Positions 32,868 through 46,893 of a DNA stretch of 64,000 bases are shown one piece after another. Position 1 is the first letter of the stretch, and every line of letters begins with the position of its first letter. The stretch is from Paenibacillus hexagrammi. GTDB lineage: Bacteria; Bacillota; Bacilli; Paenibacillales; NBRC-103111. Made by a program: the position numbers and the translations under genes. The notes under the pieces were generated by a model. That model did not search any database, was not told the DNA's origin, and saw only the letters and a list, made by a program, of their open reading frames with translations. The stretch is from the NCBI RefSeq assembly GCF_021513275.1, contig NZ_CP090978.1, positions 3,224,001 to 3,288,000 of the forward strand. The letters are read 5' to 3'.

Positions 32868-34418
32868 CTACGAATTGACAAAGTAATCTTTATTAATATC
32901 GCTTACCGGCTTCGGCACCGGACTAAACATCGCTTCCGCCATGCGTATCGCTTTGAGCAGCGCTTTGGCTTTATTCACCGTTTCATCGAATTCATTCTCC
33001 GGTACGGAATCCCATACGATTCCTGCACCCGCCTGGACGTAAGCTTTGCCATTCTTGAAGATAATCGTACGAATCGTAATGCACGTATCCAGATTACCGG
33101 AGAAGCCCAGGTAGCCGATGGCACCCGCGTAAGCTCCTCTCGATTCAGGCTCCAGCTCTGCAATGATTTCCATGGCTCTCAGCTTCGGAGCACCTGAAAC
33201 CGTGCCAGCAGGCATACATGAAAGGAAGGCATCGTAGAAGTCTTTATTGGCTGCTATTTTACCAGACACATTGGATACGATGTGCATGACATGAGAGTAA
33301 CGCTCAATATCCATAAAAGTGTCGCATTTTACTGTACCAAACTCCGACACACGTCCGAGGTCATTTCGTCCGAGATCAACCAGCATAAGATGCTCTGCAC
33401 GTTCTTTCTCGTCTGCCAGCAGTTCTTTTTCCAAAGCCAGATCCTCTTCCGGAGTCCTGCCTCTTGGCCGTGTACCCGCAATCGGTCTAGTTTCTACTTT
33501 ATCTTCCTCAACACGCACCAGCAGCTCAGGTGATGTTCCAACGATGACTTCATCATCCATTTTGAGAACGTACATATAGGGGGATGGGTTCATCGTACGA
33601 AGGACTCGGTACACTTGAAGCGGCGATACCGCTGTTTCTATTTCAAAACGTTGAGAAAGCACGACTTGGAAAATGTCGCCAGCCCGGATGTATTCCTTGG
33701 CTTTCTCGACATTGGCAATATACTTATCTTTCGTAATATTTGAACGGATTTCACCAAGTTCCGGCTCTTCCTTGATCGGATTATGCGTCATGGTATCAAA
33801 GCTAAGCGGTCGCTTGATCTTTTCAATCGTAGCATCTATCTTCGCGCAGGTTGCATGATAAGCTTCAACAATGTCGGCATCTGTTGCGAAGTTAGGTACA
33901 TGCACGTTGGCGATAACCTTAATCTGCTGTTTAAAATGATCGAATACGATCACTTGATCACAAAACATAAACTGGATATCGTTCATTTGCAGATCATCAA
34001 TTTGATGAGCCGGAAGCTTTTCATAGTATTGAAGCAGATCATATCCGAAAAACCCAACAGCTCCACCTGTGAAACGAGGAAGATCCGGAATCTGAGGACT
34101 GGAATAGGAACGAAGGTAGGCTTTCAATATTTCAACCGGTCTTTCTTCGGAAACTATCGTTTCCCTTGCCGTCTCCACTTCCGTTTTACCGTGCTTGGCG
34201 CGAATCATCAGGAAAGGATCACTCCCGATAAAGGAATATCTCGCCCATTTCACACCGCCTTCTACGCTCTCCAGTAGGAATGCGCGACGTTCTGCATACA
34301 GATGTTGAAACACACGAATCGGCGTTTCCGTGTCGGCCAGCAGGTTGCGAACGACAGGGATCAAATTATAATCTTTGGCAAGTCGAATCACTTCTTGGAT
34401 TTCCGGTGTGTACATCAT
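32868..34418 (-). CDS. trpE: Anthranilate synthase component I
   Basis: The 516-residue chorismate-binding enzyme shows the N-terminal LLES segment (feedback tryptophan site), [62 protein letters not shown] and [14 protein letters not shown]. It forms anthranilate from chorismate with an amidotransferase partner. GGAAGGGGAG lies four bases before the ATG pair at 34418/34415. It is the first trp gene after the TRAP attenuator. Confidence 0.97.
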
Positions 34419-34537
34419 CGAACTCCCCTTCCAACAGGCTCCTCACTAAGGAGACTCATTCGTTTTTAAGTCAAGCTTTACGATGGAGGAACCATCATAT
34501 CCCATTTAGTTTGGGTCCGTTTTGAATGGAATATAAT

Positions 34538-34568
34538 AAAAAAACCTCTACCGAAGTAGAGGTGTTAG
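34538..34568 (-). terminator. trp attenuator terminator
   Basis: CCTCTAC and GTAGAGG (34545-34562 with a TTCG-type loop) form a compact stem followed by T7 (34538-34544). The 5' arm plus adjacent CTAAC can pair instead with AGTAGAG and GTTAG inside the upstream TRAP site, forming an antiterminator. Confidence 0.85.
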
Positions 34569-34667
34569 GTTTAAGTTGAAGGGTAGTATGAAATGAATAA
34601 AGAAGATGTGTCTGCATATGTAAAATGGCAACCTAAATAGGCATGCTCCACCATATGCTCGTAAACA

Positions 34668-34741
34668 CTCTGCTTTCTCAACTCAACTGTTCTCTGCTCA
34701 ACTATACTAACTCTAGGCTCTACTCACTACTTACTCATCTA
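34668..34741 (-). promoter_or_regulatory. TRAP RNA-binding site in the trp leader
   Basis: On the minus strand a dense series of GAG and TAG triplets (with one CAG) runs through 74 bases; from 34736 to 34679 they recur mostly every 5-6 bases, matching the spacing TRAP needs. At least 11 triplets can be placed in register. TRAP, encoded by mtrB at 45 kb, should wrap this RNA when tryptophan is bound and prevent the antiterminator. The site begins almost at the transcription start. Confidence 0.85.
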
Positions 34742-34746
34742 TAAAC

Positions 34747-34776
34747 ACTATACTACCGCTATTGCGGATTTGTCAA
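34747..34776 (-). promoter_or_regulatory. Internal sigma-A promoter for trpE onward
   Basis: TTGACA (34771-34776) and TATAGT (34747-34752) are separated by 18 bases. The -35 hexamer is formed by the last codons of aroH. Confidence 0.75.
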
Positions 34777-35139
34777 ATTCACTATGTCAGGTCGCAGCGC
34801 TTGGGCTGCTTTTAAATAGATGTGGTTTATCTCGGATTGGCTCTTTGTTGTGTTCACTTGAACCATTAAACGGATGCATTTCGGCAAACTATTCTCTACA
34901 GGCACTTCCAGCGCGCACATCAGTGGCACAAGCTCCCAACCGCTCATCGTACGAATTGCACGAGCCGGGAATGTTGCCGTTAGGTCTTGGGTTACTGTGA
35001 TAAACACATAACTAATATCTTCGGGTCTGCAATCATTAGCAGCTATGATGGCATGAAGCAGTTCGGATGTTGCAGATAGTATCTCTTGTTCTTCATTATG
35101 CTCTACTGTTGTGGCACCGCGAATTCCCCTTGCGAACAT
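34759..35139 (-). CDS. aroH: Monofunctional chorismate mutase, AroH class
   Basis: The 126-residue protein matches the B. subtilis AroH fold: MFARGIRGATTVEHNEEQEI, SATSELLHAII, SYVFITVTQDLTATFPARA with the catalytic Arg, and a C-terminal YLKAAQALRPDI. It rearranges chorismate to prephenate for phenylalanine and tyrosine. It lies between aroB and trpE, as in B. subtilis, and its 3' end contains the trp promoter -35. Confidence 0.95.
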   Translation of the reverse strand: MFARGIRGATTVEHNEEQEILSATSELLHAIIAANDCRPEDISYVFITVTQDLTATFPARAIRTMSGWELVPLMCALEVPVENSLPKCIRLMVQVNTTKSQSEINHIYLKAAQALRPDIVNLTNPQ

Positions 35140-45057: not shown

Positions 45058-45285
45058 TTATTCTTCTGTATCCACCGTACCAAATTTCGTCATGATGATC
45101 GCTTTGCCTCTAACCTTCACAGCTGAGGTATGCTCAGTAAACTGAGCAATCATCACCTCTCCCTTGTCTAGCTTTTCCGTATGGTGAAACCGAGTATCCT
45201 GACCTCTGGTCAAGCCGATCACATGAACGCCGTTGTCCTTCGCTTTAATGATAAAGAAATCATTGTTATTTCCATTACCTTCCAT
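45058..45285 (-). CDS. mtrB: Tryptophan RNA-binding attenuation protein TRAP
   Basis: The 75-residue protein matches TRAP closely: [40 protein letters not shown] and [13 protein letters not shown]. The residues that bind tryptophan and stack on G-A-G triplets (KLDKGE loop, the two Lys and Arg of VKVRGKA) are present. TRAP forms an 11-subunit ring that binds (G/U)AG repeats when charged with tryptophan. Its target is the leader upstream of trpE at 34.7 kb. GGAGGG precedes the ATG. Confidence 0.96.
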
Positions 45286-45371
45286 AATAAGAAACCCTCC
45301 GTTCTCATGCTTAAAGCATAACTAGGTTCTATGATGCAGAAAATAAAAGCGGAAGTCAACTGCATCTAATC

Positions 45372-46286
45372 TTACAAAGCTGTTTCCTGTGCTATATTTC
45401 GTTTCCGGTAAAATAACTTAATGGATCCCGGCAGCACTTTATTCGTCACAATACGAATCAGGAAATCTGCGAGCTTTACCGTACCAAATGCAAACAGCAT
45501 TCCTGCACAAACATCGATGAGCCAATGAATCTGTAAATAGAGTGTAGAGAAAATGATAGCGCTGCAATACGTAACCATCATCGTTTTAAAAATCCGGTCC
45601 TTCTCACGTAAAGCTAACAGCAGCATGGCAAATGATATGGATGTATGCATGCTGGGGAAGCAATTCATTACAGCAACGAGAAGCGAATTATTGTCCGCAA
45701 ACGTCCGATGCAGTAAATCAGGCTGCTTATTCACATACCAAACCTCATGAAGCAAGATTAGATTATAAAAGGGCAAAATAAGCGGAAATTGCAGCATATG
45801 GCCGGATAAGGCATAGGAAACCATCTTCTTGATACTGCGAGTCCAAAAGCTGCGCACAATACAAATCCAAAGAGAAAGTACAAATCCGTAGTTGTAGATC
45901 CAAACCATCGACTTATCAAGATAAGGATTGGCGATTAAGCGGGCCCATCCGCCTGTATTCAGCGGTATCGCATTCATATAATCGTCCCAGTGCCAAGGAT
46001 GACGATTGTTCTCAAACATCCAATTGGCAATCTTCCACCATAGGCTGTTGCCCGATCCATAAAAATAATAAAAGACACCTAGCAGCGGAATACCAAAGAC
46101 AAAAAAACGCTTCCAGTCCACATCAACTTGATCTGTACGCACGCCAAGCAAGCAAATTAGCAGCAAGCCCCAGCAGGATGGACTCCATCCACCAACGGTT
46201 CCAATTCGCCAAACCAAATAGATCGAAAAGATGATACCATACATCGTCCAATCCAGAGACCTAATCTTTTCGTTTAATTTAAGCAT
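45372..46286 (-). CDS. PAP2-superfamily membrane phosphatase or phosphotransferase
   Basis: The 304-residue protein has at least six hydrophobic segments. The PAP2 (Aur1-like) catalytic motifs are NCFPSMHTSISFAM (SxxxH with the conserved His) and LQIHWLIDVCAGM (the final His/Asp). Such enzymes act on membrane phospho-lipids, for example undecaprenyl pyrophosphate or inositol-phosphate lipids; the substrate is not readable here. It lies between mtrB and tRNA-Pro, where B. subtilis has folE (mtrA). Confidence 0.82.
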   Translation of the reverse strand: MLKLNEKIRSLDWTMYGIIFSIYLVWRIGTVGGWSPSCWGLLLICLLGVRTDQVDVDWKRFFVFGIPLLGVFYYFYGSGNSLWWKIANWMFENNRHPWHWDDYMNAIPLNTGGWARLIANPYLDKSMVWIYNYGFVLSLWICIVRSFWTRSIKKMVSYALSGHMLQFPLILPFYNLILLHEVWYVNKQPDLLHRTFADNNSLLVAVMNCFPSMHTSISFAMLLLALREKDRIFKTMMVTYCSAIIFSTLYLQIHWLIDVCAGMLFAFGTVKLADFLIRIVTNKVLPGSIKLFYRKRNIAQETAL

Positions 46287-46331
46287 GTCCTATGCTGTCC
46301 CCCAGTCTAGTAAGAAGCATTCCTACAAAAG

Positions 46332-46358
46332 AAAAAGACATCGGCTTGACGATGTCTT
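46332..46358 (-). terminator. Terminator downstream of tRNA-Pro
   Basis: AAGACATCG and CGATGTCTT form a stem followed by TTTCTTTT on the minus strand. Confidence 0.85.
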
Positions 46359-46363
46359 CCTCA

Positions 46364-46440
46364 TGGTCGGAGTAACACGATTCGAACGTGCGACCTCACC
46401 CACCCCAAGGGTGCGCGCTACCAGGCTGCGCCATACCCCG
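46364..46440 (-). tRNA. tRNA-Pro (anticodon GGG), CCA encoded
   Basis: A 77-nt cloverleaf: acceptor CGGGGTA/TACTCCG, D-arm GCGC/GCGC, anticodon stem CACCC/GGGTG with loop TTGGGGT (anticodon GGG), T-arm GCACG TTCGAAT CGTGT, and a genomic ACCA 3' end. Confidence 0.93.
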
Positions 46441-46530
46441 AAGCGAATACGTAGCGTACTCACTTAATTACGATTGTAATTATAGTGGGAGCACATAAAA
46501 ATGTAAAGGCAAATTTCTTTCACGTTTGGA

Positions 46531-46574
46531 AAAAAATAAATAAAGCCGTCAGCACCTTGACGTGCGAACGGCTT
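46531..46574 (-). terminator. Terminator downstream of hup
   Basis: AAGCCGT and ACGGCTT close a stem with inner CAC/GTG; T-rich sequence (TTTATTTATTTTTTTCC) follows on the minus strand. Confidence 0.75.
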
Positions 46575-46611
46575 CTTTATTTATAGAAAAAATCGTATGT
46601 AAGACAAGCAA

Positions 46612-46893
46612 TTATTGAATTCCGTCTCTAAGCGCTTTACCCGGTTTGAATGCTGGAATTTTGCTTGCCGGGATTTCGATTTCATCACCCGTTTGTGGAT
46701 TGCGTCCCTTACGAGCGGAACGTTCACGAACTTCAAAATTACCGAATCCAACAAGCTGTACTTTATCTCCGCTTTGCAGAGCTTCGGAAATTGCATCAAA
46801 AACAGCATCAACTGCTTTCGTAGCGTCTTTCTTGGAAAGTTCGGAAGTTTCAGCAACCTTATTGATCAATTCAGATTTATTCATGCCATTCAC
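46612..46893 (-). CDS. hup: DNA-binding protein HU
   Basis: The 93-residue protein has the full HU pattern: [20 protein letters not shown] near the start, [28 protein letters not shown] for the DNA-binding arms, and [14 protein letters not shown]. It bends and compacts DNA as a dimer. The spoIVA-hup-mtrB order mirrors B. subtilis (hbs). The start at 46893 has two extra residues before MNKSEL and GGGGAGG upstream. Confidence 0.96.

Follow-up and report, generated by a model that had tools for sequence, protein, structure and literature searches.

Where a predicted TRAP binding site lies at the very 5′ end of a trp leader transcript and the terminator lies far downstream of it, how could the one govern the other? 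The aroH-trpE intergenic region of Paenibacillus hexagrammi raises this question. It was read on the minus strand within a 64,000-nt stretch of NZ_CP090978.1 (3,224,001-3,288,000), hereafter the window, whose positions serve as coordinates throughout (Table 1). Located 3′ of trpE are trpD, trpC and trpA, assigned by NCBIfam, and trpF and trpB, assigned by ORF position only. Very probably, this leader is a TRAP-controlled transcription attenuator with a long-range variant of the antiterminator, a reading drawn from the sequence and its comparison with relatives. TRAP attenuators are a known family; the new element, as far as the sequence indicates, is the long-range layout in a Paenibacillus trp leader. 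No study of a Paenibacillus trp leader was found among the literature matches listed, which covered papers outside subscription, and trp or tryptophan occurs 0 times in the available part of the main text of an RNA-seq paper on P. riograndensis (PMC5670726).

Table 1 Features of the trp leader and of the TRAP gene in the window
Feature	Position	Strand	Basis or remark
aroH	ORF 34759-35139	-	TIGR01796
Sigma-A-type promoter, TTGACA-18-TATAGT	34747..34776	-	11/12 consensus matches; predicted +1 A34740
Predicted TRAP binding site, 13 non-overlapping GAG/TAG (KAG) triplets	34668..34741	-	counts, Markov controls, relatives
Antiterminator H1 5′ strand, AGTAGAG, inside predicted TRAP site	34718..34724	-	complementarity, relatives
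Antiterminator H2 5′ strand, GTTAG	34707..34711	-	146/150 cells paired, 25 sequences
Antiterminator H3 5′ strand, GTTGAG	34697..34702	-	141/150 cells paired
Antiterminator H3 3′ strand, CTTCAAC	34575..34581	-	same alignment as H3 5′ strand
Antiterminator H2 3′ strand, CTAAC	34564..34568	-	same alignment as H2 5′ strand
Antiterminator H1 3′ strand, CTCTACT, also part of terminator 5′ arm and loop	34555..34561	-	complementarity, relatives
Intrinsic terminator	34537..34563	-	8-bp perfect stem, TTCG loop, T7
trpE	32868..34418	-	first gene of putatively regulated operon
mtrB, TRAP subunit, 75 aa	45058..45285	-	PF02081 2e-40; NF009724 equivalog above cut-off

Promoter, triplet track and terminator of the trp leader

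An aroH search yielded 80 related loci, mainly from Paenibacillus plus Cohnella, Chengkuizengella and a few others, with trpE as the next gene in 79 (L057 was dropped because trpE was not found). Two sets are used below: 73 leaders, comprising the window and 72 relatives (L038, L067, L068, L071, L072, L073 and L080 were dropped without a promoter call), and an alignment of near leaders, A1, which holds 25 of the 28 prepared (the window and 27 relatives; L014, L015 and L018 left out).

The first-pass annotation placed a sigma-A promoter with its -35 element in the end of the aroH coding sequence, and this assignment stands: TTGACA (34776-34771) overlaps the aroH 3′ end and is followed, after 18 nt, by TATAGT (34752-34747). 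It is the sole promoter-like site in 34400-34900, where shuffled sequence yields 0.9 on average, and a similar promoter was called in 72/79 related leaders. The start at A34740 is predicted from promoter spacing only. The step from the -10 element to a conserved AG(A/T)TG is fixed in all 25 A1 leaders, which supports the earlier proposal that the TRAP site lies at the predicted 5′ end. In 36/73 leaders the first triplet of the chain lies no more than 10 nt from the predicted +1; the 5′-end position is a lineage trait, commoner in leaders near the window.

Triplets of the predicted site start at 34741, 34736, 34729, 34725, 34720, 34715, 34709, 34704, 34699, 34694, 34684, 34679 and 34670, the first straddling the predicted +1, and two further isolated GAG occur 3′ of the track (34660 and 34648). 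About 11 or more triplets at 5-6-base spacing had been claimed. The count is upheld, but the strict 5/6-nt run is only 7 triplets long; steps are mostly 5-6 nt, and those of 7, 4, 10 and 9 nt make the claimed spacing slightly generous. Spacers are 2-3 nt within a run of at most 7 triplets and 1, 4, 6 or 7 nt elsewhere, and to call the triplets 'in register' is our own reading of this spacing. Even so defined, the track stands out from 60 Markov sequences of 64 kb, searched on both strands: the longest strict run is 7 in the window versus 5 at best in the controls, and with steps of 4-7 and 10 nt allowed the chain reaches 12 versus at most 8. A scan of the genome for four evenly spaced KAG gave 9 matches versus 16 in a reversed control and is uninformative alone; both the trp leader and the region upstream of pabA are among the 9. 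A five-triplet pattern gave 0 matches in the genome.

The terminator, ACCTCTAC-TTCG-GTAGAGGT at 34563-34544 followed by T7, sits between the triplet site and trpE, as a TRAP attenuator requires, and its stem alone folds at -10.5 kcal/mol. The whole leader is 322 nt long. By its sequence it fits the TRAP attenuator family in every feature tested and departs from two features of the B. subtilis layout. The terminator is not close behind the last triplet (34670), from which it is separated by 104 nt, and a 5′ stem-loop ahead of the triplets is absent if transcription starts at 34740, since that predicted start leaves no room for one.

A proposed long-range antiterminator overlapping site and terminator

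An antiterminator of 7 + 5 bp had been proposed from AGTAGAG/CTCTACT (H1) and GTTAG/CTAAC (H2). These strands are complementary, and homologues back the inner helix, H2. They also support a third helix beyond that proposal, H3. By complementarity and comparison, the antiterminator overlaps both the site and the terminator, although shuffles of the window spacer alone were negative and the terminator is favoured at equilibrium.

Folding of successive transcript ends is consistent with a switch. For transcript ends from 34556 to 34548, H1, formed here by GTAGAG in the site and CTCTAC in the terminator arm, has a pairing probability of 0.99-1.00; this falls to 0.06 at end 34544, where the terminator 3′ arm is complete. 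The terminator then forms alongside the remainder of a long hairpin. For the complete RNA without TRAP, the terminator fold has -52.3 kcal/mol versus -49.7 kcal/mol with H1 forced, a cost of 2.6 kcal/mol; for read-through, the antiterminator must therefore form first and hold kinetically, and we infer that it does. When the track was held single-stranded, the masking of triplets suggested in the first-pass annotation, only the terminator and a small spacer hairpin remained, in line with the proposal.

At minimum energy the leader folds into one long hairpin, with the triplet track as its 5′ strand. The arms of H2 are about 138 nt apart, close to the bridge of roughly 140 bases described before; the intervening RNA is, however, predicted to be mostly folded into this long hairpin, with pairing no better than that of shuffled spacer. 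Specifically, the triplet-spacer pairing energy in the window was not better than with dinucleotide-shuffled spacer (z -0.7), and 190/300 shuffles were as good in a duplex test. Over 73 leaders the median z was 0.6, with 6 leaders above 2, and in eight relatives 9 to 112 of 300 shuffles were as good in the duplex test. The extension of the hairpin was accordingly rejected as structural proof for the window alone. In the minimum-energy folds of 67/73 leaders, 4 nt or more of the terminator 5′ arm are paired to sequence lying no further 3′ than the last triplet.

Conservation of the leader in related genomes

Dense triplets and the terminator are conserved at related loci. At least 9 KAG in 75 nt were found in 79/79 aroH-trpE loci versus 13/800 background segments of the same loci, and at least 12 in 69/79 versus 0/800. 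A terminator signature of CCTCTAC..GTAGAGG or a close form is present in 62/79 loci. Eleven of the other 17 leaders (L045, L052-L054, L060, L064, L069, L075 and L077-L079) carry stems of the CTCCTGC..GCAGGAG type, without a clear partner in the triplet track.

Mean column identity in A1 is 91% for the site, 70% for the other spacer and 96% for the 3′ partner columns of H2 and H3. The paired cells of H2 and H3 (Table 1) drop to at most 96/149 and 85/150, respectively, when the strands are slid by 1-3 columns. H1, which is shared with the terminator, pairs in 179/199 cells and varies hardly at all, most of its pairs never. RNAalifold recovers H2, H3, H4 and the terminator; for 5/32 pairs, including one in the terminator, both partners are changed in one or more sequences, and the covariation term is small (-0.08). 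The alignment of Paenibacillus leaders that had been recommended for covariation thus bears out the proposal in part: H2 and H3 contribute one compensatory change each, both in the window row (T-A to G-C in H2, after one gap was moved by hand, and A-T to T-A in H3), but H1 is near-invariant. The parts of the leader, their conservation and the predicted core helices are apparent from this comparison.

Complementarity between site and terminator arm was assessed in 71 leaders (L028 and L059 were dropped because of miscalled terminators), thinned by similarity to 47. Over these dissimilar leaders it beats that of spacer-shuffled sites, 3/500 of which reach it; in the window alone, 43% of spacer-shuffled sites match the terminator arm equally well. 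A leader's own arm gave no significant gain over foreign arms (491/5000), because most arms are alike. In some relatives the match extends into the loop, up to 11 bp (L047 and L063). Taken with the mtrB product and a predicted site upstream of pabA, described below, the conserved track and terminator and the pairing in homologues favour the reading as a TRAP attenuator that the first-pass annotation had put forward.

Distribution in the order and class

Leaders were also sampled from the order (the best 30 of 60 genomes by trpE match score) and from the class (the best 30 of 81 by trpE score, 6 of which are in the order, 5 of those already sampled). At the best-scoring trpE loci, the terminator signature is present in 30/31 sampled order leaders, own genome included, and in 0/24 sampled leaders of other Bacilli, 18/24 of which have at least 9 KAG in 75 nt. 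The one sampled order leader without the signature, L160 upstream of trpE, has a sparser track with 8 KAG per 75 nt. The gap between triplets and terminator is 62-331 nt in 24 order leaders versus -2 to 62 nt in 14 leaders of other Bacilli (median about 25 nt), calls having been dropped for weak chains in 7/31 and 8/24 leaders, respectively, and for a missing terminator call in two more of the latter. The long gap is therefore a lineage feature.

Nine leaders, L149, L152, L153, L155, L156, L158, L161, L164 and L168 (all on the reverse strand apart from L156 and L168), are about 400 nt long. Ahead of the terminator they have a conserved block (TATAGGGACTTGTTATTTATGAAGCA...), for which pairing to the TRAP site over a distance of about 300 nt is predicted. 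In these 9 leaders, from another genus of the order (L159 and L169 were dropped from 11), the gap is about 320 nt and 37 site-block pairs are kept in 333/333 cells, with 0 compensatory changes among them. Identity is 0.88 in the pre-terminator block versus 0.72 in the middle, and in duplex energy the block outdoes most shuffles, of which 8 to 51 in 300 do as well; in 6/9 leaders some middle window pairs with the site equally well or better. Beyond the window's own group, a long-range antiterminator is probable but not proven. Chances seem evenly balanced for a scheme that would cover the order, in which the TRAP site is the 5′ half of a 170-400-nt antiterminator with a canonical terminator 60-330 nt off, TRAP has no direct role at the polymerase, and binding time for TRAP comes from the long transit in place of pausing.

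Proposed mechanism and comparison with known leaders

Without tryptophan-loaded TRAP, the triplet track would supply the 5′ strand of a long-range antiterminator, and the terminator 5′ arm would be part of the 3′ strand. Formed before the terminator 3′ arm is transcribed, this structure would permit read-through into trpEDCFBA. With tryptophan, a TRAP ring would wrap the 5′-terminal triplets of the nascent RNA and block the antiterminator, and the canonical hairpin (34563-34537) would end transcription. TRAP may gain time for binding through the long transit.

The general scheme is that of the B. subtilis trp leader, which shares the promoter, the (G/U)AG track, the mutually exclusive antiterminator and terminator before trpEDCFBA, and TRAP as the sensor. 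The layout differs, as the first-pass annotation had noted. According to the available excerpts, the B. subtilis antiterminator runs from +60 to +111 and the attenuator from +108 to +133 (PMC4027176), compared with an antiterminator at about +17 to +186 here; the spans are 52 nt and about 170 nt, and the overlaps of antiterminator and terminator 4 nt and 7 nt, respectively. The B. subtilis leader is 203 nt long, more than 100 nt shorter than this one, and the U-stretch of its attenuator is interrupted (excerpts of PMC3913778), unlike the perfect stem and unbroken T7 found here 104 nt past the site. A 5′ stem-loop precedes the triplets in B. subtilis, whereas here the site starts at the predicted +1. 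Some leaders of the order have RNA ahead of the triplets and others have none, which makes the requirement for the 5′ stem-loop testable. The B. halodurans trp leader, served by a 12-subunit TRAP (PMC3184956), likewise has more than 11 triplets, but the hairpin of its attenuator is, according to excerpts of PMC3913778, weak and mismatched, unlike the perfect one here; excerpts of PMC3184956 note Lys15 and Thr72 in Paenibacillus TRAP and consider a 12-mer possible.

B. subtilis work left open how much of termination by TRAP is due to hairpin release and how much to action on polymerase. An entire order whose terminators lie 60-330 nt past the ring sets the two routes apart in natural sequences. 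Given the 104 nt between the last triplet and the terminator, the sole action of TRAP here is most likely the release of RNA structure, without contact with polymerase at the termination point: with that gap, a perfect stem and an unbroken T7, a bound ring is unlikely to stand against the polymerase there. Release of the terminator through a blocked antiterminator is favoured as the main or only route, and we lean somewhat towards its being the only one.

It is unlikely, though worth weighing, that TRAP terminates also or mainly by direct action on RNA polymerase, as has been suggested in B. subtilis, and that the hairpin contributes little. The spacer here does contain U-rich stretches. The residue that we take to align with B. 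subtilis Glu60 is Lys in the window and in 20/20 order genomes read, which would speak against direct action, but the solved TRAP chains 3zzl and 1c9s, probably from other genera, also have Lys there, so the argument is weak and does not decide. In B. subtilis, the E60K substitution in TRAP gave 3-fold less termination, and the attenuator is weak: with it deleted, TRAP still terminates in vivo and needs only an A+U-rich stretch after the site (excerpts of PMC3913778). The stem energy calculated above is no stronger than the -12.6 quoted for B. subtilis in the same excerpts. Against such action stand the distance to the terminator, which exceeds the whole range in the 14 leaders of other Bacilli, and the perfect stem with uninterrupted T7, unlike the interrupted U-stretch given in the B. 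subtilis excerpts.

The remaining explanations are less probable than direct action. That TRAP mainly blocks translation by sequestering the trpE Shine-Dalgarno sequence, with attenuation secondary, seems improbable. Holding the site single-stranded lowers Shine-Dalgarno accessibility by more than 0.2 in 26/73 leaders and raises it by more than 0.2 in 0, in a test that had no control and in which a drop is expected on removing a purine-rich competitor; in the window, the unpaired probability merely moves from 0.28 to 0.22. A structure that sequesters the Shine-Dalgarno sequence does exist in B. subtilis (excerpts of PMC3913778). We consider it slightly less probable still that the triplets bind TRAP while the terminator is constitutive and the antiterminator an accident of composition; the shuffle results for the window and the equilibrium preference for the terminator without TRAP would fit an accident, but the conserved 3′ partner columns, the compensatory changes and the spacer-shuffle test over 47 leaders argue for a selected pairing. 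Least probable is that a T-box or leader peptide runs the operon and the triplets are incidental. The spacer has a 27-codon ATG ORF that could suggest a leader peptide; it has no Trp codon, and 9/25 aligned leaders have no ATG ORF of at least 10 codons, so this candidate was rejected. A T-box or other Rfam element was rejected as well, with no match in the window leader or in the 20 searched of 80 related loci.

TRAP, its predicted targets and neighbouring genes

The first-pass annotation had also reported mtrB in the same window; it is there and is the sole match in the genome. Its product matches solved TRAP structures, and PF02081 is present in 95/99 genomes, own included. Anti-TRAP (PF15777) was not found in this genome and gave matches in 2/99 genomes, one above cut-off (G083:C1 3412218-3412382, L084; 5.7e-14) and one weak. 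TrpP (PF17099) was not found in this genome either.

pabA is a known TRAP target in B. subtilis. Upstream of pabA in this genome, 7 KAG lie in 80 nt (G000:C1 5819205-5819764, minus strand; L083 1690-1790), and 24/24 same-genus loci have 7-11 (mean 8.9) compared with a gene background of 1.5; six loci of other families in the order have a mean of 2.5 (0 to 7). This GAG/TAG cluster is likely a second TRAP target, and the sequences are consistent with trp and pabA forming a TRAP regulon in this genus. The B. subtilis pabA (trpG) site is likewise a KAG cluster ending at the pabA start codon; it belongs to another operon, is presumed to be translational and is separate from the trp attenuator. In this assembly, the family match of pabA is split over two frames by a frame break; same-genus relatives are without an internal stop.

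The two ORFs examined upstream of mtrB (45058-46893, minus strand) encode a PAP2-family protein and an HU protein; the gene follows folE in B. subtilis. Elsewhere in the window, a pan motif (RF01749; 7699-7826, minus strand) is the only Rfam match at the gathering threshold.
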